Of a stretch of DNA of 64,000 bases, positions 1 to 63,254 are shown piece after piece. The stretch comes from Prorocentrum cordatum (taxonomy: Eukaryota > Sar > Dinophyceae > Prorocentrales > Prorocentraceae). The stretch lies in contig CAUYUJ010003558.1 in assembly GCA_963575745.1 (NCBI GenBank), forward strand, positions 1,024,336-1,088,335. The letters are read 5' to 3'. A program made the translations under genes and the position numbers. The notes beneath the pieces were generated by a model. It did no database searches. It was not told where the DNA came from and was given only the letters and a program-made list of their open reading frames with translations. Numbering within the stretch: the stretch's first letter is position 1; every line of letters begins with the position of its first letter.

Positions 1-60
1 GTGTGGCTGGAAAGTCGATTGGGCTGGCCGCGGACTAGCGGTGTCCATTTCCTGCTTGCG

Positions 61-97
61 CTTGAACCAAGATGCCTTGAGCCAAACTGACTACGGA
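61..97 (-). other. Tandem spliced-leader relic
   Basis: On the minus strand, bases 97-76 match the dinoflagellate spliced leader with two changes (TCCGTAGTCAGTTTGGCT then CAAG). They are followed directly by a second, older 15-base copy at 75-61 (GCATCTTGGTTCAAG). A full leader followed by a copy lacking the first seven bases is what results when a retroposed, already trans-spliced mRNA gene is trans-spliced and retroposed again. Any gene it belonged to would run off the left edge of the window, so no product can be named. Confidence 0.6.
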
Positions 98-15295: not shown

Positions 15296-15318
15296 CCTGG
15301 AGCCAAAATGGCGATGGA
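15296..15318 (-). other. Spliced-leader relic upstream of 97-aa ORF
   Basis: On the minus strand the sequence reads TCCATCGCCATTTTGGCTC then CAGG. It matches the dinoflagellate leader except for AT in place of GT near the start and an inserted C near the end. A leader encoded next to a gene in genomic DNA is evidence of mRNA retroposition. Confidence 0.65.
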
Positions 15319-34355: not shown

Positions 34356-34719
34356 GTTGTGCACGGACAGCCCCACCCTGGGCAGTCCCGGCTGGCCTCG
34401 ACATGCTCCCCGACGCGTCGGGGGCGGTCTCAACACCCCGGAGCGGCCTCGGGCGCGCGCCTGGGGCGCCCCGTGCCCCAGGGCCGAGGTGCTGACACCG
34501 CCCTGGATCGCTCGGGGGGCCTGGCGGCGCGAATCGGGACTACCTTGGGGGGGCGGGGTCTGCGAGCAACCCGACGCCCTAACCAGAATTGACGGCGGGT
34601 GGTCTTCGATACTTTTCGGCCTGCGGAGGGCTTTGCTGGATCCTGGGACTTTAGATAAATTATCCCAGTGCGACCCTACCTAGGAGTTGGAGCCCCTAGG
34701 AAAGCAGCATTAGTAGTAA

Positions 34720-35224: not shown

Positions 35225-36346
35225 GTCATCCTCACCCCCGGCTCAGAGCGGCCTCTGGCACCGTTTCCGGACAGATCCGGTGGATCCGGTGGATCCGCCG
35301 ACGAATCCCAAACCGGCGCCCTCGCTTGAGACATCCTCACAAAACCGGCCCCGGGGGAGGTGCCCAGAGGAGCCCAGAGCGGCCTCCGGCACCGTTTCCG
35401 GACAGATCCGGTGGATCCGGTGGATCCGCGCCGACGAATCCCAAACCGGCGCCCTCGCTTGAGACATCCTCACAAAACCGGCCCCGGGGGAGGTGCCCAG
35501 AGGAGCCCAGAGCGGCCTCCGGCACCGTTTCCGGACAGATCCGGTGGATCCGGTGGATCCGCCGACGAATCCCAAACCGGCGCCCTCGCTTGAGACATCC
35601 TCACAAAACCGGCCCCGGGGGAGGTGCCCAGAGGAGCCCAGAGCGGCCTCCGGCACCGTTTCCGGACAGATCCGCTGGATCCGATCCGGATCCGCCGACG
35701 AATCCCAAACCGGCGCCCTCGCTTGAGACATCCTCACAAAACCGGCCCCGGGGGAGGTGCCCAGAGGAGCCCAGAGCGGCCTCCGGCACCGTTTCCGGAC
35801 AGATCCGATCCGCTGGATCCGGTGACGAATCCCAAACCGGCGCCCTCGCTTGAGACATCCTCACAAAACCGGCCCCGGGGGAGGTGCCCAGAGGAGCCCA
35901 GAGCGGCCTCCGGCACCGTTTCCGGACAGATCCGGTGGATCCGGTGACGAATCCCAAACCGGCGCCCTCGCTTGAGACATCCTCACAAAACCGGCCCCGG
36001 GGGAGGTGCCCAGAGGAGCCCAGAGCGGCCTCCGGCACCGTTTCCGGACAGATCCGTGGATCCGCCGACGAATCCCAAACCGGCGCCCTCGCTTGAGACA
36101 TCCTCACAAAACCGGCCCCGGGGGAGGTGCCCAGACGAGCCCAGAGCGGCCTCCGGCACCGTTTCCGGACAGATCCGCTGGATCCGGTGGATCCGCCGAC
36201 GAATCCCAAACCGGCGCCCTCGCTTGAGACATCCTCACATAACCGGCCCCGGGGGAGGTGCCCAGAGGAGCCTCCGGCACCGTTTCCGGACAGATCCGCT
36301 GGATTCGGTGGATCCGCCGACGAATCCCAAACCGGCGCCCTCGCTT
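35225..36346. repeat. 121-133-bp satellite array, left part (about 8.5 units)
   Basis: Each unit contains CAAACCGGCGCCCTCGCTTG, AGACATCCTCACAAAACCGG, GGTGCCCAGAGGAGCCCAGA and CGGCACCGTTTCCGGACAGA. Length varies by the number of GGATCCGGT modules. The last unit is cut after CCCTCGCTT by the transposon at 36347. Open frames across units are repeat artefacts. Confidence 0.95.
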
Positions 36347-36365
36347 CCCAGGCCATCCGATATCA
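36347..36365 (+). repeat. Left terminal inverted repeat of transposon
   Basis: CCCAGGCCATCCGATATCA. Target duplication TT at 36345-36346. Confidence 0.75.
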
Positions 36366-36629
36366 AGCTAAGCTAATATTATCAGCTCCGGGGGACTCTG
36401 TACTAGTACCGACCCCCGCGCGGTAAAATATCAATACAGATTGGGGGTAATAAGTATTAGGTACTTGGGGGTAATATATATCAGGTACTCCTGGTGCGTT
36501 TTGGGAGGGGGATCAGCCAACTGCGCAACTCGTGAAGCCCAGCGGACCACGTCCTAACGAGACCCAGTGGGCCCTCGCGTGATAAGAGGAACAGTCATAA
36601 GCAGCAGTAGAAGTATAATTTGTTGTTGA

Positions 36630-36651
36630 AGTTGCAGCAGTAGTAGTAGTC

Positions 36652-36705
<54 letters not shown>

Positions 36706-37153
36706 ATAGTAGTAGTCGTAGTAGTGGTAGTGGTAGTTGATGTTGTTGTAGTCATAGCAGTAGTCGTCGTAGTAGTCGTAGTCGTAGTCGTAGTAGTAGT
36801 AGTAGTAGTAGTCGTAGTAGTAGTCGTCGTAGTGGTACTCGTACGACGTAGTACTAATAGTCGCATTATTAGCAGTATCATCAGAAGTCGCATTTTCAAT
36901 ATTCAGTAGTAATATTCGTAATCGTAATCGTTTTAGTAGTTGTACGATTAGTAGTATTTGTACCATTAGTAGCATATTTCAGCAGTAATAATAATAGTAC
37001 GATTAGTAGCATTAGTGCTTTTAGTGGTACCCGTACTTTTAGTAGTAATAATGGTGGTAGTAGTAGTCGTAATATAATTCGTAGCCGTAGAAGCCGTAGT
37101 AGTCGTAGTAGTCATGGTAGTCGTCGTAGTGGTAGTAGTCGTAGTAGTAGTAG

Positions 37154-37218
<65 letters not shown>

Positions 37219-37445
37219 ATAGTAGTAATAGTAGTAGTGTAGTAGTAGTAGTAGTAGTCGTAGTAGTTGTAGCAGTAGTGGTGGTAAATGTCGTAGTAAA
37301 AGTAATAGTGGTAGTAGTAGTGGTAGTGGTAGTAGCAGTAGTAGCAGTAGTAGTAGCAGTAGTAGTAGGTGTAGTAGTAGCACCAGTGAAAGTAGTAGCA
37401 GTATCAACCGTATCAGCCGTACCAACAGTAGTCGTAGTAGTAGTA
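36630..37445. repeat. (GTA)n microsatellites inside transposon
   Basis: TAG/GTA triplets at 36638-36840 and 37035-37445 with GTC interruptions. They lie upstream of ORF1 and no ORF there is real. Confidence 0.93.
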
Positions 37446-37574
37446 GATACCTGTGGAAATATCTGCGCTTTCGTGAGCTCGCGGGAAGCCAGCCGATGAA
37501 GATGCAGCTTCAGCGTGTGCGTGGACACTGTCACCATCATTGCGTGCATCACCACACACCATGTCATCACATCA

Positions 37575-37597
37575 TCCGTAGCCATTTGGGCCCAGAG
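37575..37597 (+). other. Spliced-leader-like sequence before transposon ORF1
   Basis: TCCGTAGCCATTTGGG then CCCAGAG. The first 13 bases match the leader exactly, then drift. It ends 31 bases before the ORF1 start codon. Confidence 0.6.
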
Positions 37598-37628
37598 TCG
37601 ATTTGCTTCGGTTTCGCGATCTGAAAGC

Positions 37629-38645
37629 ATGCCCGCACAGGGCTACAAAATACCATATTGTTCTCAAGACGCGTTGAACAGAGTGTTGATCAAACATGGA
37701 GATGTTGCAGTAAATCTCGGGCAGTACGAACACATATCGAAAAGTTGTGCCGTCAATGGAAAAGCCATGTGGCATATTGCACCGTTCTTGGCAGACCTCG
37801 TCTCGATTCAAGCTTGTTGCGAATTCAACCACTCGCAGATGAAAGCTGCATTTTTGAATTTGGTCAAAGAAAAACCTACCGTATCGACTGGCAAATACTT
37901 GGCAAAAGTGTGGGCGGGGCTCCGTTCAGAGAGGCTGACGACAGTTTTATCACACGTGCGGCGCGTTGTGCGAGATGATGGTCGTTGTTTCCAAATGCTT
38001 GGAAAAATGGACCCCAAAGACTACGACACACTACACGATCATGTGTTGAAGCTCGTGGTACCCATTGCAATGCGCCCCGATTCAGCAAGTGCGATGCCAA
38101 GCGATCTCGAGCCTCCGTCTGAAGAGCCCGCATCCGAGTCGAAAGCCCCCGCCATTCACATTGCAAGCCCTGCAAAGAAGCCTGGGAAAAGGTGCACAGG
38201 CAAGACGTCTCCAGAACACGTGAAGGTCAGCAAGGACGAGGTCTCCGAGCAGACCCCAAACATCAGAGACAAGGCGACGATCTCGAGCGAGCAGTTGCGA
38301 ACGTCCCTCGAAGTTGACACCCCAGCAAAGGTTGATAAACCCAGTGCGGCAGCAAGTACGACACCGAAGATTGATAAGCCCAGCAGCGCGGCTCCAGGTG
38401 CAGGACGGAAAGAAGCTCCGACGTTCGACCCCGAGACGCAGTCGCTCAGCCTCATGTATTACAAGCGTGACAATTGCTGGGCGATTCGCATTACAGGCGG
38501 GCCGCAGATCGTCAGTGTGGGGAAGCGTGGTCGGAGCAAGGATGATCTCGAGCGTATGGCCAAGAAGGCGAAACGTAGCCTCGAGACGGGCATGGATATT
38601 CCTACTGTGAAGCTACTGGTCAAACTAAAGTTGGACAAAGAATGA
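37629..38645 (+). CDS. Transposon ORF1, possible AP2-like DNA-binding protein
   Basis: 338 residues from MPAQGYKIPYCSQDALNR. The N-terminal ~150 residues are well mixed and probably globular (GKAMWHIAPFLADLVSIQAC, LTTVLSHVRRVVRDDGRC). A lysine/proline/serine-rich linker follows (about 155-260). The C-terminal ~70 residues (SLSLMYYKRDNCWAIRITGG, then KRGRSKDDLERMAKKAKRSL) look like three beta strands and a helix, as in AP2/integrase-type DNA-binding domains; that reading is inference. The upstream frame is open to 37515, but the ATG 31 bases after the leader-like sequence is the natural start. Codon use is less GC-rich than in the host exons. It may help transposition by binding DNA. Confidence 0.6.
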   Translation: MPAQGYKIPYCSQDALNRVLIKHGDVAVNLGQYEHISKSCAVNGKAMWHIAPFLADLVSIQACCEFNHSQMKAAFLNLVKEKPTVSTGKYLAKVWAGLRSERLTTVLSHVRRVVRDDGRCFQMLGKMDPKDYDTLHDHVLKLVVPIAMRPDSASAMPSDLEPPSEEPASESKAPAIHIASPAKKPGKRCTGKTSPEHVKVSKDEVSEQTPNIRDKATISSEQLRTSLEVDTPAKVDKPSAAASTTPKIDKPSSAAPGAGRKEAPTFDPETQSLSLMYYKRDNCWAIRITGGPQIVSVGKRGRSKDDLERMAKKAKRSLETGMDIPTVKLLVKLKLDKE

Positions 38646-38749
38646 GCCCTATTCGAGTAAGGGTGCAACGTTTGATCTTCGCGCTCCATGTGGGGTCGGC
38701 GCACCGCGAGCCTCGCGCAGATAAAAAATAAACAAAGAAAATAACAACA

Positions 38750-38965
38750 CGAAGGAGGATGAGGATGAGGAGGAGGAGGAGGAGCAGGGGGGGGACGAGG
38801 AGAGGGAAGATGAGGAGGATGAGGAGGAGGAGTTGGCCAACTTGAAAATAAGAAGTTGACAAGTATGTTGTTTTCAAGTTAGTGGAGGAGGAGAGGTGGA
38901 GGAGAAGGACAAGGAAGAGGAGGAGGATGCAGAGGAGGAGGAGGAGGAGGAGGAGAAGCTCAAGA
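38750..38965. repeat. (GAG)n tracts between ORF1 and ORF2
   Basis: Two GAGGAG blocks (38750-38830, 38880-38960). Confidence 0.9.
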
Positions 38966-39316
38966 CTCCCGAACAGTATGGGTGCGCTCGGCGACCAACC
39001 AAGACCTACACAGCAAGCTGTAGTGGGAATCGGATTTGAACGTGGCTGATGTTCTTATGTGTGATGTGGTTGTGATTGTGCGTATTTACATGTAGTAGAC
39101 TCCCCCCAAAAGCTGTTTAGGGTCTCGCACGTCTTCTCGCGAGGATTCCTTTGAAAACAGCCGTGGCGAACGAGGTCCGCTCCCCCCCGTTGGCCTGGGC
39201 GCGACTGCTCGTGATTGTGCCGCCCCAGCCGTGTCCTGGCGCACCTTCCACTCCACAACCGTCCATTATGTTTCCCTGCTCCAATGGAGTAAACAGTCCT
39301 CCCCCTACCCTCCTCA

Positions 39317-39338
39317 TCCGCAGCCGTTTTGGCTCGAG
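39317..39338 (+). other. Spliced-leader-like sequence before transposon ORF2
   Basis: TCCGCAGCCGTTTTGGCT then CGAG, three changes from the leader over 22 bases. It ends 71 bases before the ATG. Confidence 0.65.
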
Positions 39339-39409
39339 CCAATTTCGACGGCATCCAACGTGAGGTCGGTCGCGACTTCGAGCGATCTACGACTACACAG
39401 AATCGCACC

Positions 39410-40495
39410 ATGGTGGCAAAGAGGCCAGCAGCTGCGACGCCGAAGGCACAGGCGGCCAAGAAGCCAGCATGTGCTGATGCCAAGAAGCCAACAGCTGCTG
39501 AGGCGCAGGATCCCAAGCAGCACGCCGAGGACGATGATGACGCCTGCAGCCAAGTCGGTTCGGCCCTCAGCGTGTGCGGCAGCTTGCAGGAGAAGATCGA
39601 CATCCTGAAGAACCACTCGGAGCTCACCGACCTTCAGAAGCTCAACATGCTCAAGACTAAGTTGACGGAGGGTGACTGGGCGGCCTTGAACGGGCGCGTA
39701 AACAGGGCTTCAGAGAAGGACACGGACCTGGCGACGGAGATCGAGACGGCGTTCAACAACGGCGGCCGCAGCGAGAGGCGCAACACGATTTGCGCTTGGG
39801 TGCTCGACCCAACCAAGGGCAAGGTGTACAAGGAGCTCAAGCACGGCATGGGGCAGAAACAGAAGTGGACCAAGCAGGAGAAGTGGGAGGGGCGCTCAGC
39901 ATATGTGCCGTCCAAGTGGACAGCTGCGGAGTTCGACGCCTTGGTGGATTCAGGCCGCATCGTTGAGCGCGAAGTCGTTGGCTGCCCTGGCATCTTCGAG
40001 TACATGGACAACGGGGACATGACGGTCACGAAGGAGCTCGAGAAGAACAAGACCCTGACAGGCAAGCAGGTCGACGATATCGCCCCAGAGACCGACGAGG
40101 CCGAGTACTTCCAGCAGCTGATGGGTCAGATCAACGGCTTGGGGAGCACGGACATCATGGGCGGCGCGGTTTGGGGGTCAAGCAGCAAAGGTCGTGGCAG
40201 AGGGTCGGCAGCAGCAATCGAGGACAAATCGGAGGGCAACGCCGGCCAGGTCGAGAAAACGAGGAAGCAACAGACGGAGGAGGTGAAGATCCAGAAGCGG
40301 GCGAAGTTCTGCGGCACGCTCATCACCAACACCATCAAGACGATCGACGCGACCCTCTACAACAACGGCAAGAACGTGGCGTCGTCGAAGAAGGCGCAGC
40401 TCACGAAGATCAAGCAGGCCTTGCAGGAGTTGTCGCAGCAGGATCTCACGGACACGAACGTTCAGACGAGCGTGGCGGTTAAGGTGGCCACCTAA
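39410..40495 (+). CDS. Transposon ORF2, lysine-rich helical protein of unknown function
   Basis: 361 residues with ATG in a strong context (ACCATGG). The N-terminus MVAKRPAAATPKAQAAKKPA is basic and alanine-rich, like a nuclear-targeting tail, followed by an acidic patch (about 38-45). The middle (WVLDPTKGKVYKELKHGMGQ, EKWEGRSAYVPSKWTAAEFD) is conserved-looking and globular. The C-terminus (KKAQLTKIKQALQELSQQD) is predicted helical and may form a coiled coil. Third positions are strongly G/C, so it is clearly coding. The frame is open upstream to 39329. No family is recognised; its place between ORF1 and the transposase suggests an accessory transposition protein. Confidence 0.65.
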   Translation: MVAKRPAAATPKAQAAKKPACADAKKPTAAEAQDPKQHAEDDDDACSQVGSALSVCGSLQEKIDILKNHSELTDLQKLNMLKTKLTEGDWAALNGRVNRASEKDTDLATEIETAFNNGGRSERRNTICAWVLDPTKGKVYKELKHGMGQKQKWTKQEKWEGRSAYVPSKWTAAEFDALVDSGRIVEREVVGCPGIFEYMDNGDMTVTKELEKNKTLTGKQVDDIAPETDEAEYFQQLMGQINGLGSTDIMGGAVWGSSSKGRGRGSAAAIEDKSEGNAGQVEKTRKQQTEEVKIQKRAKFCGTLITNTIKTIDATLYNNGKNVASSKKAQLTKIKQALQELSQQDLTDTNVQTSVAVKVAT

Positions 40496-40529
40496 CGTAT
40501 TATCATTTCCTTCCACCTCCCACCTCCCC

Positions 40530-40805
40530 TCCTCCTCCTCCTCCTCCTCCTCCTCCTCCTCTGCCTCATCCTCCTCTTCACCCTCCGATGTGTTCCTCAT
40601 CCTCCTACTGCTCCCCCTGCTCCCTCGCCTCTAACCTCCTCCTCCTCATCCTCCTTCTCTGCCTCCTCGTCGTCCTCCTCATCCTCGTCCTTATCCTCCA
40701 CCTCATCCTCCTTCACTAACTTGAAAAGTAGAACTTAAACTCCTCCCCATCCACCTCCTCCTCCTCCTCCTCCTCCGCCTCCTCCTCCTCCCGTTCCTCC
40801 CCCTC
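40530..40805. repeat. (CTC)n-rich spacer after ORF2
   Basis: CTCCTC-type triplets with ATCCTC variants. Confidence 0.85.
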
Positions 40806-40974
40806 GCAATGCCACCGTGCGAAATGATAATGCACTGCGTTGAGGTGAAGTCTGCGAAGTTGGCGTGCAACACGTTCTAGACATGACGCAGACGGCTCGG
40901 TGCGATGGTGGCACGCGTTTTTTTTCTCTGGCAGTGATTTGCGAACAATTGTGTTTCTGGTGTGGCACTCTGGT

Positions 40975-41145
40975 TACACCAACGTTAGGAAATCCTAACG
41001 CCATGTGAGGTTTTCCTAACGCCAACTCACAAAACCTAACGCGGTGTTAGGAAAACCTAATGCGGCGTGAGGAAATCCTAACGCCGACCATGACTGGCGT
41101 GATGAAAACCTAACGTGGCATTAGGAAAACCTAACGTCGGTGTTT
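40975..41145. repeat. CCTAACG / TTAGGAAAACCTAA palindromic repeats
   Basis: About eight half-sites of CCTAACGC or its complement in both orientations, spaced 12-25 bases, inside the transposon between ORF2 and ORF3. Similar short sites next to a transposase gene can be binding sites, but no function is shown here. Confidence 0.7.
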
Positions 41146-41895
41146 CGGAGTGTCAATCTATAATGTGATGTTCGACCGTACACACGATGCATACATGTAG
41201 TTCGATTGTGTGACATACATGCGATATATAATATTGCGCACGCTGCCAAATAATGCACCGTCGCCCTTTGCGCGCGCTCAGTATCTAGCTGGGCCAAGCC
41301 GTACGCATCGCGAATGATGCGCGTGCGGCGGCGTTGCGGTGCGGAGCCTCTCCGAAGGATGGGAGTTCTAGGAGATGGGGGAGGGCAGGATGAGGAGAAG
41401 GATGATGAGGATGAAGGTATGCAGTAGGACTAGGAATATTTGGCTTCGCAAAGATTGGCGTAGACGCGTCGGAGACCGAAGGGGTGCGCAGCCAGTTGGT
41501 GCGGTATGCGCGCGCTCTCTCAGCGTCGAGGGGTGAGAAAAACTGGAACATTTGAAGCTTTAGGTGCGGGGCCCCCTCGGTGCCACCATTTCGTTCTTTA
41601 GGCGTCGTCGGGTGGTCCAGTCCTGGCCCAGGAATCTCTCGAGGGGGTTCGACCTCAAACGTTTAATAGAGGGTCTGGCAAAGGGGTTCCTCCTCCTCCT
41701 CCTCGTCCTCCTCTTCCTTCCCCTCATCATCATCATCGTCATCCTCATCCTCATCATCATAATCAGCAGCGTACTCAACATTATCACAATCAATGCTTCT
41801 GATATCGTCGCCGTCACCTATATTATCAAAAACACCCAACATCACCGCCATCACCAGCATCACCCTCCCCGACATCACCAACACCACCATCAACA

Positions 41896-41917
41896 TCCAC
41901 AGCCGATTTGGCTCAAT
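41896..41917 (+). other. Spliced-leader-like sequence before transposon ORF3
   Basis: TCCACAGCCGATTTGGCT then CAAT, five changes from the leader. It ends 67 bases before the chosen ATG. An in-frame ATG overlaps its last bases (41916). Confidence 0.5.
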
Positions 41918-41984
41918 GTGGCTTGTACGTTTCGCAATCATTCACTCTGCATGTGGCCTCCATGTCGTGACACCAGCGCGGCGA

Positions 41985-43790
41985 ATGCCGACTGGTAGAG
42001 TTTCGGTTGAAGAATCTGTTGCCAGAGCCGAGGCAAGCCATGTTAGAACAAAGCCATGTGGACAGAATGGTGATCAAAGTTCTGACAACCACCCCCTGAT
42101 CAGTAGCATAGTTCAATCCTTCCTCGAAGGGAAAATGTCTGCAGCCGCTGTCCAAGATGTTGCCTTGAGTGCGATGTTACACCCAGAAGGCGTGTCTGAG
42201 CTGGCTGGGCTGGCGTCGCTCGGTGGCGTCGGTTCTCAACCAGGAAACATTAGCAGGGATTTGATGCGGTACTTGGACAATTTGGGCGAGTCTTCGCTGC
42301 CGATGCCCACCAGTGTCCAATGTCCGATGGTCGACGCAAAAACGTCGACACTTCTACGCACAGGCTCGCTTGAGGTCTTCGACCCCGCCGAATTGTTGCA
42401 AGGACTTGCCAACTACGATTTGTTCGACCGCATATTGCGCACCGACTGCGTTGAGGATTTCTGGAAGAACATGAGGCCAGATGACCCCAGGCTCGTATAC
42501 CTTCTGAACGAGAACGTTGATTTGGACCCAGAGAAGTTGAAAAAAACAATTCCGTTGTACGTACATGGGGACCACGCTGAGTTCGTCAACGACGATTCGC
42601 TCATGGTCTGGCATATGGGGTCACTTCTAACAGATGTACCATCATTGTGTTCGTGCTTATTGCTTGGATGCGCGCCCAAAAGGATAGAGGTCACCAAACC
42701 TGAAGATACGTGGGACGCTGTGTGGGAATCGTGCTGGGTCCCGAGCTTCACTTGTTTATTGGGCGGCAAAACTACGGCAGGCGAGGACGTGCATCCGTTG
42801 GGCTGGAGATTCTGCGTGTTCGCCTTAACAGGCGACCACGAGCACTTTGTGCTCACATTGAAATTACCGCATTGGAATTGTTTTAAGTATTGTTATATGT
42901 GTGACGTGGACAAATCGACAGACGGGCCATTCGCTGGCAGGAGGTTCCACGGTGGATCGTGTGGCGTGCCCCTCAAAGCAGCGAATGACGAAACCCTCCA
43001 TCGTTTGAGCAAGCATCCTGTGTTCAAGATCCCTGGTGTGACTCGGCACAATGTCATGGGAGATGCCCTCCACATCTTGTGGGCGAATGGCGTGTGTTCG
43101 CACGCTGCTGGATCTGCTTTGCATTCGATGTGTTGGATTGGCCGAGGCGCACAATCAATAAAGCCTGCAGAAAGATTGAAACTAATTTTCGCACGGGTGC
43201 GAACACTTTACGCGGAGCGGGATTCACCGTCAAGGTTTACTAACTTGTCCTTGAATATGTTCGTGTCTAATTTGGGTTCACCGCACGCAACCGCTCCCAT
43301 GCTCAGAGGCAAGGCAGCGGAAATCAAGCATTTCATGCCAATTCTGGCGCAGATATCTTCGGAAATCTCAGATGGAAGTATTTCGCACGAGCGCAGGACA
43401 GCAGTGCTTTCTTCGCTGGCCCGTTTCGGAGAGCTGTTGGATGATGCTCCGATTTTCCCAAGTGACGATCAAAAGCGAGAGGCGACGGCAGCGATGAGTT
43501 CTGCGCTGGACAACCTGACCAAGCTGAGGGAGGAAGCGGAGGCACATGATTCATGCAATTGGCACATTGTATATAAGCATCATTTCTTCGAACACTTGAG
43601 CCAATTATACGACTACATAAATCCACGGATTGCGTGGACATTCAAAGCTGAGGACATCGTTGGCAAGATGTCAGGGGTTGCACATTCGTGTTCTTTCGGT
43701 GTTCGTTCGATTGATTTGCCAGGAAAGGTCGTCATGAAATGGAGGCGGTTGTACACTTGGTTGCTGAATAGGAGATCCGTCGATTTGTAA
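41985..43790 (+). CDS. Transposon ORF3, TNP2/CACTA-like transposase
   Basis: 601 residues from MPTGRVSVEESVARAEASHV; an in-frame ATG lies 23 codons upstream at 41916. Recognisable TNP2-type features, in order: IPLYVHGDHAEFVNDDS with candidate catalytic D196; a W.F.LTGDHEHFVLTLKLPH segment followed by a CYMCD zinc-knuckle-like pair (C303, C306); NVMGDALHILWANGV with D360; and the C-terminal AEDIVGKMSGVAHSCSFG with E556/D557. Order and spacing fit an RNase H-fold DDE transposase. The family assignment is by eye. There is no stop or frameshift, and the termini are intact, so the element may be recent. Codon use is more A/T-tolerant than host exons. Probable role: cutting and joining the element's ends. 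Confidence 0.75.
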   Translation: MPTGRVSVEESVARAEASHVRTKPCGQNGDQSSDNHPLISSIVQSFLEGKMSAAAVQDVALSAMLHPEGVSELAGLASLGGVGSQPGNISRDLMRYLDNLGESSLPMPTSVQCPMVDAKTSTLLRTGSLEVFDPAELLQGLANYDLFDRILRTDCVEDFWKNMRPDDPRLVYLLNENVDLDPEKLKKTIPLYVHGDHAEFVNDDSLMVWHMGSLLTDVPSLCSCLLLGCAPKRIEVTKPEDTWDAVWESCWVPSFTCLLGGKTTAGEDVHPLGWRFCVFALTGDHEHFVLTLKLPHWNCFKYCYMCDVDKSTDGPFAGRRFHGGSCGVPLKAANDETLHRLSKHPVFKIPGVTRHNVMGDALHILWANGVCSHAAGSALHSMCWIGRGAQSIKPAERLKLIFARVRTLYAERDSPSRFTNLSLNMFVSNLGSPHATAPMLRGKAAEIKHFMPILAQISSEISDGSISHERRTAVLSSLARFGELLDDAPIFPSDDQKREATAAMSSALDNLTKLREEAEAHDSCNWHIVYKHHFFEHLSQLYDYINPRIAWTFKAEDIVGKMSGVAHSCSFGVRSIDLPGKVVMKWRRLYTWLLNRRSVDL

Positions 43791-44204
43791 TGTGAGAATC
43801 GGTGGCACTACATACATGGAATGGCTTGTGGCACGCTGCAAAGCAAAGAAAAACACAATTTTCTCACGTTCCCATGCCCTTTCCTGCGCGTCTCCTTCCT
43901 CCCGTCCCCCGCCCCCTGTCCTACCTTCTTTGCACACCCAGGACGGAACGAATGATGATATACCAAGGGCTCCGCCGCCACCGCCCCCCCGCGTTGCTTG
44001 GGGGAGGGCCGCTTACTAAACTACTAAGGCGAGAGCTTCATTTTGAAAACGGGCCGCCCTGCATCCGTGAACTTGTTACAACGACGAGCGCCTTCCCCCA
44101 AGGTACCCTTGCGTCCTCCCCCCGTCTCCCTCTCCCCTCCCTCCGCGTCCCTACTCCCCCCCCTCCTCATGTTCTGGACTCGATGGCTACTATCACTAAC
44201 TACC

Positions 44205-44207
44205 ACA

Positions 44208-44243
<36 letters not shown>

Positions 44244-44520
44244 GCTACGACTACTATCCTTATTATTACCACTACTACTACTGTTCCAAGTATTCCTACT
44301 ATTACTACTACTATGATTATTACTACCACTGATAGTACAACTACTACTATGATTACTATTTTACTAATACCACTACAACGACTACGACGAGAACTACTAC
44401 TACTAATATTGCTACTGCTACTGATACTACAACAACTACTACAGCTAGCACTACTGAGATTAACAATACGATTGCAACTACTAGTGGTACTAGTACTATT
44501 ACTACGCCCTCGAAGGATAC
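44205..44520. repeat. (CTA)n microsatellite inside transposon
   Basis: ACTACTACT triplets, partly diverged. Confidence 0.93.
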
Positions 44521-44744
44521 TTAAGGATAATAGGGGAATAGGAGAGTCGGAGAATAGGAGAACGCCCTCGAAAGATATGCAAGGGATGTTTTTCTACCCC
44601 GTGAGATCTGGGTTCTCTACGAAAAAACACAATGTGAATTACAGCCGAGTTTCCAAACACTCGGCTGCAATTCCTTTCTGCGAAAACTGACGGTTAACAT
44701 AATTAAAAAAAAGGAAAGACAGCGTGGGGTCGCCCAAGGACGTG

Positions 44745-44819
44745 TTGCCTACTACTACTACTACTACGGCTGCCACAACAGCAACAACAACAACAACTAC
44801 TACTACTACTACTACTACG

Positions 44820-44884
<65 letters not shown>

Positions 44885-44885
44885 G
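44745..44885. repeat. (CTA)n microsatellite inside transposon
   Basis: Pure CTA triplets over most of the length. A third, diverged CTA block lies at 45235-45365. Confidence 0.95.
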
Positions 44886-45559
44886 TACATACAACCTACC
44901 GTTCTGGCCTCCTTGGGACGTGGTGCAAGCACTGCTTGGGGAGTCGTTTGTGGACCCTGAACAGTAGTGTCGCGGATTTTATCCATGGCAGTAGACGGGG
45001 GATGATTGACATAGTCAACCGTCCCTCTTCTCAGACTGCCCCTGCATCACAGAAGTGTTAGACGGGCGGCAGACGTTACAGGGATCAGGGCGGTGTTAGT
45101 AACACTGCTCTGGCAGCAGGCAATCTTACGAGAGACTCAGGCCGTGCTCTTGGGACTTTTCTCGTAGGCTCCCTCGTGGCCAAGAGCCGCGAAGCCTTCT
45201 GCTGGGTCTGGGGGCGCCCAGACACAAGTACGAAGGCTACTACTAGTACTACTATAACCACTACCACTACCACTAACACTATTATTACTACTACAACTAC
45301 TACTACTGCTACTTCTACTATTACTGCTACTACTGGTCTTACGACGACGATTACTACTACTGATAACTACCATTACTCACATGCTGCTGCTCCTGGTACT
45401 GCGTAGATAATACGAGCGTGAAAATTAACATCACCACTACCACACGCACTCGTAATACTCATGATACTATTACGTCGAAGCCGAAATCGCTGCATATGTT
45501 ATTGATATTTAACGAAGCGCCACACCGCGAGCGCGCAGCCAGTGCGACCTCATATTTTC

Positions 45560-45660
45560 TGGGCCACGATACCTAATATTTCCTGGGCAACAATACCTAA
45601 TATTTTCTGGTTGATTTTCCGTGCGCGCACGGAGGACAAACAGCTGTACTAATACATTTT
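45560..45660. repeat. Subterminal TACCTAATATTT repeats of transposon
   Basis: GATACCTAATATTTCCTGGG and AATACCTAATATTTTCTGG lie in tandem. The left end has the inverse (AGTATTAGGTACTTGGGGG). These are likely transposase recognition sites, by analogy with CACTA subterminal repeats. Confidence 0.6.
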
Positions 45661-45698
45661 GGCCTGATATTTTTAAGCTCCGGAGTATCAGCTATACC

Positions 45699-45717
45699 TG
45701 ATACTGGATGCCCTGGG
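45699..45717 (-). repeat. Right terminal inverted repeat of transposon
   Basis: Reads CCCAGGGCATCCAGTATCA on the minus strand. Target duplication TT follows at 45718-45719. Confidence 0.75.
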
Positions 45718-46362
45718 TTGAGACATCCTCACAAAACCGGCCCCGGGGGAGGTGCCCAGAGGAGCCCAGAGCGGCCTCCGGCACCGTTTCCGGACAGATC
45801 CGCTGGATCCGGTGGATCCGCCGACGAATCCCAAACCGGCGCCCTCGCTTGAGACATCCTCACAAAACCGGCCCCGGGGGAGGTGCCCAGAGGAGCCCAG
45901 AGCGGCCTCCGGCACCGTTTCCGGACAGAGATCCGGTGGATCCGCCGACGAATCCCAAACCGGCGCCCTCGCTTGAGACATCCTCACAAAACCGGCCCCG
46001 GGGGAGGTGCCCAGAGGAGCCCAGAGCGGCCTCCGGCACCGTTTCCGGACAGATCCGCTGGATCCGGTGGATCCGCCGACGAATCCCAAACCGGCGCCCT
46101 CGCTTGAGACATCCTCACAAAACCGGCCCCGGGGGAGGTGCCCAGAGGAGCCCAGAGCGGCCTCCGGCACCGTTTCCGGACAGATCCGCTGGATCCGGTG
46201 GATCCGCCGACGAATCCCAAACCGGCGCCCTCGCTTGAGACATCCTCACAAAACCGGCCCCGGGGGAGGTGCCCAGAGGAGCCCAGAGCGGCCTCCGGCA
46301 CCGTTTCCGGACAGATCCGGACAGATCCGGTGGATCCGCGCCCCGGGGGAGGTGCCCAGAGG
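45718..46362. repeat. 121-133-bp satellite array, right part (about 5 units)
   Basis: Begins TTGAGACATCCTCAC, exactly continuing the unit cut at 36346. Same sequence as the left part. Confidence 0.95.
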
Positions 46363-47020: not shown

Positions 47021-47143
47021 CCCAGGGGACTGGGGGAACCGCGGGGCGGGGACTGGGGGAACCGCCCGGGGCGCTTTCCACTGCCCGGCCCCTTTAAGCT
47101 AGAGAGTAAGAACCCTTCTAGGCAGAGCCTAGGTAGGGAAAAA

Positions 47144-62548: not shown

Positions 62549-62585
62549 TCCGTGGCCATTTTGGCTCAAGCCGTTTTGGCTCAGG
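62549..62585 (+). other. Tandem spliced-leader relics
   Basis: TCCGTGGCCATTTTGGCT then CAAG (62549-62570) differs from the leader at one base. It is followed directly by the 15-base partial copy CCGTTTTGGCTCAGG (62571-62585). The second copy starts exactly at the point where the internal TAG of an older leader would have served as splice acceptor. Confidence 0.85.
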
Positions 62586-62648: not shown

Positions 62649-63254
62649 ATGGCCATGGCGCTGGCGAGGCCATGCCAGCACGCCTCTGCCATTGCCATCA
62701 TCAGCATGAGAGACAAAATTACCAACTTCTACAGCAATGCTATGGGGTGCTGCCAGACTGCGAGGCGGCCCACTGCAGAACCGGCACCAACAGCGCGTTC
62801 TCCGCGGCATGGAGATCGCAGCGTTCGGCCCAGCAATAGCCCGACGCATGGCCCGACGCAGGAGGACCAGCCCTTGCGAAGCCGCCCTGAAGAACCACGC
62901 CGATGCGAAGAAAGGCAACCCCACCACGGAGACCAAGTACATCGCGGTCCAGATCCCCATGCCGGCGGGCGCAACGAGCACGGCAACACTTTCTATGGAA
63001 GGATGCGCGTGTGCGGCAGCACTCTTGCCTTCGACGCCCCGAACGTCGACTTCGGCAACGACCCGCGCCACCGCGAACTGCCGCCGCTGCTCCCCAGGTG
63101 CCACTGCAATACCCCCGATTACGCCTGCCACCAATCTACCCAGCCGGCCCTGCAGGGTGGTCGTTCTTCGTGCGGCTTGCTACATGTTGATAGCCATAAC
63201 CACGAATGCCTGGCAGGACCTGGGCCTTGCGGGAGGCTTCGGCTCGGGCTCTAG
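62649..63254 (+). CDS. Probable retrogene ORF, unknown product
   Basis: An open frame of 201 residues (MAMALARPCQHASAIAIISM, RDKITNFYSNAMGCCQTARR, ending GPCGRLRLGL) begins 63 bases after tandem spliced-leader relics. The N-terminal ~45 and the NTFYGRMRVCGSTLAFDAPN region have good third-position G/C. In between (about 62830-62965) the best codon bias shifts to the frame reading KNHADAKKGNPTTETKYIAV. This suggests compensating frameshifts, so a decaying copy. On the minus strand the same stretch gives a hydrophobic GIWTAMYLVSVVGLPFFASA segment; a minus-strand exon cannot be excluded. The product is not recognised. It lies within the eIF4A gene, opposite to it. Confidence 0.45.
   Translation: MAMALARPCQHASAIAIISMRDKITNFYSNAMGCCQTARRPTAEPAPTARSPRHGDRSVRPSNSPTHGPTQEDQPLRSRPEEPRRCEERQPHHGDQVHRGPDPHAGGRNEHGNTFYGRMRVCGSTLAFDAPNVDFGNDPRHRELPPLLPRCHCNTPDYACHQSTQPALQGGRSSCGLLHVDSHNHECLAGPGPCGRLRLGL

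Follow-up and report, generated by a model that had tools for sequence, protein, structure and literature searches.

We analyzed a stretch of 64,000 nucleotides from the genome of the dinoflagellate Prorocentrum cordatum (assembly GCA_963575745.1, contig CAUYUJ010003558.1, positions 1,024,336 to 1,088,335 of the forward strand), hereafter called the window, which has a guanine-plus-cytosine (GC) content of mostly 50-62%. It harbors a DNA transposon bounded by terminal inverted repeats (TIRs), which encodes three long open reading frames (ORF1 to ORF3) in one direction (Table 1). Just upstream of the start codon of all three genes lies a worn copy of the dinoflagellate spliced leader (DinoSL). 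These blocks are relics of the spliced leader, a known mark of retroposed mRNA.

The relics were located by an ungapped scan of both strands of the 64 kb for the pattern N+CCGTAGCCATTTTGGCTCAAG. An earlier note on this DNA had placed leader-like blocks at 37575, 39317 and 41896. These positions are right, all three blocks lie on the plus strand with 17, 18 and 16 of 21 letters in agreement, and the distances that the note gave to the start codons (31, 71 and 67 nt) are exact for ATGs at 37629, 39410 and 41985. An alternative in-frame ATG of ORF3, at 41916, overlaps the 3' end of its block. In a more diverged copy of the element, C15457, the ORF3 block agrees at 18 of 21 letters. Dinucleotide shuffling (200 shuffles), a check suggested in the earlier note, yielded a mean per shuffle of 0.15 places with at least 16 matches, 0.025 with at least 17 and 0 with at least 18, which argues against chance. 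Only the length of the window speaks for chance matches; the shuffles, together with the control patterns and control places given below, speak against them, and we regard this explanation as negligible.

The earlier note had named equally good random matches in the window as grounds for refutation. Matches as good as these or better do occur elsewhere in the window, and it is their randomness that the shuffles argue against. One is the site at 62549 on the plus strand (20/21). Directly behind it is a truncated second leader copy (62549-62585), as in a twice-recycled relic, and a 201-aa ORF begins at 62649. A site at position 76 on the minus strand (19/21) likewise has a truncated second copy behind it, and another at 15297, also on the minus strand, agrees at 18 of 21 letters. 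Since the shuffles speak against chance, all three look like further DinoSL relics. Tandem leader copies are described for recycled mRNAs in the parts of PMC3229502 and PMC12014239 consulted. At the three transposon sites of the window, a leader followed by a 15-nt truncated relic was not found (p 0.60, 0.086 and 0.38); because this tandem structure marks retrogenes that were recycled again, it need not occur in every retrogene.

Table 1. Features of the transposon and its surroundings (window positions; DinoSL agreement as letters of 21)
Feature	Positions	Strand	Evidence or remark
131-bp satellite array left of insertion	35244..36346	.	
TT target duplication, left	36345..36346	.	satellite phase
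TIR DNA transposon, 9371 bp, three ORFs in one direction	36347..45717	+	TIRs, near copies
Left TIR, CCCAGGCCATCCGATATCA	36347..36365	+	TIR alignment
DinoSL relic of ORF1	37575..37596	+	17/21; gapped score 15
ORF1, 338 aa	37629..38645	+	no Pfam/NCBIfam match
A-rich tract after ORF1, possible worn poly(A)	38711..38763	+	22/30 A, richest 30-nt stretch of the window
DinoSL relic of ORF2, pyrimidine tract just before	39317..39338	+	18/21; gapped score 15
ORF2, 361 aa	39410..40495	+	no curated family match
DinoSL relic of ORF3	41896..41917	+	16/21; gapped score 11
ORF3, 601 aa, transposase-like	41985..43790	+	frame open from 41793
Right TIR, CCCAGGGCATCCAGTATCA on the minus strand	45699..45717	-	TIR alignment
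TT target duplication, right	45718..45719	.	satellite phase
131-bp satellite array, in-phase continuation	45718..46339	.	

The element is a real TIR DNA transposon, which bears out the earlier note in placing the ORFs within one. The alignment of its TIRs scored 50, whereas the best of 500 shuffles reached 40. The junction is clean: the satellite runs up to CGCTT, is interrupted by the element and resumes with TTGAGACATCC, with TT doubled. A pattern spanning both element ends matched 64 places genome-wide versus 4 for the control. A second complete copy lies in C17003 (150884-160112), with the same ends and TT on either side, while a third copy in C10011, of which only the left end was read, is preceded by TA. 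Both copies start at the same left base within other flanks and are about 96% identical to the window element over most of the stretch read. A distant element, C21195, likewise abuts the same 131-bp satellite (L044 8691-9970). Within the window element, the inverted repeat TTTTCAAGTTAGTG/CACTAACTTGAAAA (38871-38884 and 40714-40727) encloses ORF2 beside GAG/CTC tracts and may represent a nested element or a fold-back. Outside the 11-bp and 131-bp arrays, inverted copies of CCCTACCTAGG noticed by eye (34674-34684 and 47128-47138) are possible ends of a larger, older element.

ORF1 is a distant homologue of the ORF1 of C19655 (expectation value, E, 3e-7), and searches found relatives of ORF2 only in near copies. 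ORF3 looks like the transposase, judging from its motifs. Its family has at least 73 matches in the same genome, mostly 23-32% identical outside near copies. Aligning nine members gave 13 invariant columns, which include C367, C370, D424, H427, K595, H597, H601, P611 and E620; an HGD motif (D260) is present in all six rows that cover it, and a GD motif (D348) in seven of eight. D260, D348 and E620 are thus candidate DDE residues by motif argument, alongside C367-C370 and H597-H601. The D-19-C and H-19-E spacing may resemble that of RAG1. CACTA/CMC-like and RAG1/Transib-like DDE transposons possess TIRs, a 2-bp target duplication and several ORFs, and their acidic and zinc-binding residues are similar to those of ORF3 in order and spacing. 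Unlike them, the window element has ends that begin with CCCAGG, has no Pfam match and has no PDB relative by sequence. Membership in CACTA (En/Spm) is not supported, as the ends begin with CCCAGG rather than CACTA/G and no CACTA transposase model of Pfam matched. ORF3 had no credible match in Pfam, NCBIfam or PDB, the PDB profile matches being mostly designed helical repeats, and viral contigs contained no relatives of ORF2 or ORF3. A single-sequence structure prediction of ORF3 was unusable (predicted local distance difference test score, pLDDT, 36).

Leader-like blocks also precede the genes of related elements. From the 73 ORF3 matches listed, 30 were made into loci, and elements were drawn from these. 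Seven elements were compared (the window element, C3784, C11436, C19655, C4763, C14438 and C21195), with transposases mostly 25-30% identical to that of the window. C4763, C14438 and C21195 were chosen once their ORF3 was known to have a leader, and C3784, C11436 and C19655 represent further full-length subfamilies whose gapped ORF3 leader matches were already known; the choice was blind for leaders at ORF1 and ORF2, not for those at ORF3. Full-length relatives left out of the seven include C1980, C14345, C8668, C13588 and C16143. A gapped fit of the leader scored 8 or more at 21 places, versus 6, 5 and 5 for three control patterns, and in a table read by hand 19 of these 21 places fall where a long ORF begins. 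A mechanical test, restricted to ORFs of at least 130 aa, excluding simple repeats and requiring the block to lie near the first Met, found a leader-like block at the start of 18 of the 26 ORFs of the seven elements. Among the eight leaderless ORFs, all of them kept in the count, are overlapping frames, satellite sequence and the latter half of a broken ORF3. Controls in this test were almost empty: 0/26 for the reversed leader, 0/26 for its reverse complement, 1/26 for its complement, a mean of 0.5 and a maximum of 3 for 20 shuffled leaders, and 0.8% of 1898 random stretches. Among ORFs of the window that lie beyond the element, 2/33 had a block, one of the two being the strong relic at 62549; antisense ORFs of the elements gave 0/17.

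The earlier note had suggested that the element was assembled once from three retroposed, trans-spliced mRNAs. Such an event would agree with the similar wear of the three window leaders. The seven elements speak against it, as they carry differently worn blocks despite the divergence of their transposases, since a single ancient assembly would leave nothing recognisable. In the transposase tree, six of the nine proteins have end branches of 1.1-2.3 changes per column, which argues against a neutral relic surviving from the common ancestor. Wear is also unequal within one element: the leaders of C11436 score 9, 21 (22/22 letters) and 10 at its three genes. We therefore judge a one-time assembly to be very improbable. 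The middle 22-mer of C11436 is equally perfect in its copy C18011, and C15157 and C18866 each depart from it at 2 of 22 letters. Its sister C10446, picked by the DNA similarity of its ORF2 after the ORF2 leader had been read and with ORF1 and ORF3 unseen, carries a fresh leader at ORF2 (score 18) and another at ORF3 (score 19; 20/21 letters). The ORF3 proteins of the two sisters are 69% identical over the 347 residues read, and the leader of C11436 at this gene is poor. When the ORF2 regions of C10446 and C17083 are compared with that of C11436, the leader (21 letters) is the sole exact 5' match; one 37-nt piece, 81-84% identical, lies further upstream.

The chief alternative is that the block is kept, under loose constraint, for a function such as a trans-splice acceptor, a TTTT-type promoter or a 5' end signal. 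An acceptor has the form of an AG after a pyrimidine-rich tract; the relic contains an AG, and some sites follow pyrimidine tracts. That blocks occur at 18 of 26 ORFs across the seven divergent elements also agrees with a function, and a promoter role of the DinoSL TTTT box is suggested in the part of PMC12014239 consulted. The earlier note had proposed to ask whether the blocks are more conserved than their flanks. In near-identical copies, taken together, they are not spared: the window element and C17003 differ at 4/63 block letters versus 11/510 flank letters, and the groups of C3784, C19655 and C4763 show 0/20, 5/18 and 0/22 block differences, together 5/60 versus 31/1002 in the flanks. 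Pooled, 9/123 block columns vary versus 42/1512 flank columns (Fisher p 0.012), a difference opposite in direction to constraint. The strict form of the expression alternative raised in the note is not upheld, as pooled blocks vary at least as much as flanks. Against the looser form stand this same result, the adjacency of perfect and poor blocks in C11436 and the two ORF3 subfamilies in which no block was found in the stretch read. A functional block appears improbable to us, though it deserves the most attention among the alternatives.

Taken together, unspared blocks, unequal wear and long end branches favor repeated, gene-by-gene acquisition of the leaders. We propose, with a confidence only slightly above even (roughly 0.55), that the genes of these transposons are renewed one at a time through RNA, with the complementary DNA (cDNA) returned into the element. 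Each transposon gene would be transcribed and its mRNA trans-spliced, and reverse transcription of this mRNA would yield a cDNA that begins with the leader. The cDNA would then recombine into a copy of the element and replace the old gene, TIR transposition would copy the leader-tagged element, and the leader would decay under little constraint until the next renewal. Trans-splicing of these mRNAs, their reverse transcription and their return to the same place are steps that we infer. Renewal through RNA would explain the leader, the mostly uninterrupted frames (those of all three window genes among them) and the unequal wear.

A similar outcome could be reached by modular exchange, in which retrogenes inserted elsewhere are captured or swapped between TIRs by ordinary recombination and not by direct conversion with cDNA. 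This predicts the same leader pattern, and leaderless ORF2 fragments with other flanks exist at C16679 and C6880. Speaking against it, gene direction is kept in the elements read, with ORF3 last in them, and we consider modular exchange rather unlikely. Conservation of gene order, which speaks for renewal, is shown for some of the elements: ORF1 precedes ORF3 in the window element and C19655, ORF2 precedes ORF3 in C4763 and C21195, and the order ORF1-ORF2-ORF3, with all three homologous, is found in C11436 and C10446.

Several observations weigh against gene-by-gene renewal. No pair of copies with and without a leader at one gene was found. The earlier note had asked for related elements with the same ORFs and no leader; these exist in part, as the ORF3 relatives C1592 and C15268 lack a leader over the sequence read (best scores 5 and 7) and the ORF1 block of C10446 is below threshold. 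In C15550, ORF3 bears a leader-like block (score 10) although it retains two intervening stretches. A tandem of leader and relic is clear at only one of 13 transposon sites, with four more at p 0.05-0.09, and was hence rejected as proof of repeated cycles. Homology of ORF1 or ORF2 was not detected between all elements (best E 0.32 for the window ORF2). Two observations also favor a functional block: in C15457 the ORF3 block differs at 2/21 letters versus 17/110 upstream, and two of the four near-copy groups (0/20 and 0/22) have no block difference at all. Finally, pattern counts over the 4.13-Gb assembly (21,875 contigs) gave 48,069 leader places with at most three mismatches, about one per 86 kb, versus 121 for the reversed pattern. 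The part of PMC10666404 consulted gives 85,849 gene models for the published genome, which makes 0.56 relics per gene model; from this number, host genes may be leader-tagged as often as transposon genes.

Two further marks of processing were considered, a poly(A) remnant and the loss of introns. An A-rich stretch (at least 19 A in 25 nt) lies within 150 nt of the stop codon in 3 of 18 leader-bearing genes versus 0.6% of 6360 random stretches, at a cut that was fixed with the data in view; the original cut of 14 gave 5/18 versus 8.9%. In the window the best 25-nt stretches hold 20 A after ORF1, which is among the three genes, 14 after ORF3 and 5 after ORF2. The ORF3s of C1592, C15268 and C15550 are interrupted at two like places and form one clade (support 96/96), so that intron gain is as likely as loss. 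In C10446, ORF1 (in L067) carries an extra stretch of 219 nt with inverted ends CTCGGGGAACA/TGTTCCCCGAG that leaves the frame open; it appears introner-like, and hence likely a gain. Intron loss was rejected as proof of processing on these two grounds. Introner elements of dinoflagellates were reportedly described by Roy and colleagues in 2023. Introners make introns and are not known to involve a leader, in which the window element differs from them. The two are alike, as far as the consulted part of PMC7789003 goes, in being mobile DNA of the TIR type and in inhabiting genomes of the same kind, with a possible introner in the ORF1 of C10446.

If renewal occurs, the detour through RNA might even be obligate for the genes of this DNA transposon family, with a leader tag that perpetuates itself, an extension that we regard as doubtful. 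Through its leader relic, each gene would offer the returning cDNA, which starts with a fresh leader, homology right at the 5' terminus. Should the terminal AG of the leader serve as the acceptor, each cycle would rebuild the structure, remove introns and reset the leader.

Slamovits and Keeling, in 2008, and Song and colleagues, in 2017, reportedly described dinoflagellate retrogenes with relic DinoSL. Like the retrogenes in the consulted parts of PMC6050394, PMC12014239 and PMC3229502, the transposon genes have a relic of the 22-nt leader just upstream. Unlike those retrogenes, they belong to a TIR DNA transposon, being all three genes of one element and most genes in its divergent relatives, and their sites are mostly without the tandem of leader and relic. 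Reported frequencies of relics differ: about 22-25% of genes or transcripts in what was consulted of PMC6050394, but two Polarella isolates had them in only 0.68% and 2.31% of their full-length transcripts (PMC7245778, consulted in part). Among endogenous dinoflagellate RNA viruses (dinoRNAV), a leader relic lies within 500 bp of 6/26 endogenised RNA-dependent RNA polymerase (RdRp) ORFs and is read as retroposition (PMC10235124, consulted in part); in those elements viral RNA was inserted in the genome, whereas the window case concerns genes of a DNA transposon. Among the titles and openings of abstracts listed from the open-access literature, none reported leader relics at DNA transposon genes.

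Leader copies were also observed in other settings. Exact genomic copies (L002, L003, L006, L008 and L009) often have CCT-rich repeats directly before them. Window positions 1-97 on the minus strand, L002 and L008 are leader-tagged and share, further downstream, a sequence similar to GGATACCGCTAGTCCGCGGCCAG; they may belong to a leader-tagged family of high copy number. The giant-virus-like, AT-rich contig IMGVR_UViG_3300045993_001077 (L001; regions 1936-2766 and 2893-2913, both on the minus strand) contains two exact DinoSL. One of them lies in front of a GC-rich ORF of 254 aa, which looks like a host cDNA that carried the leader and was taken up by a viral genome.

That cDNA replaces genes in place has long been proposed for intron loss and is hard to see. 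Spliced-leader relics date events of return from RNA to DNA gene by gene. If divergent DNA transposons carry such relics at most of their genes, the distinction between cut-and-paste and RNA-mediated elements would be blurred, and the relics would provide a dated natural assay for in-place gene replacement by cDNA.

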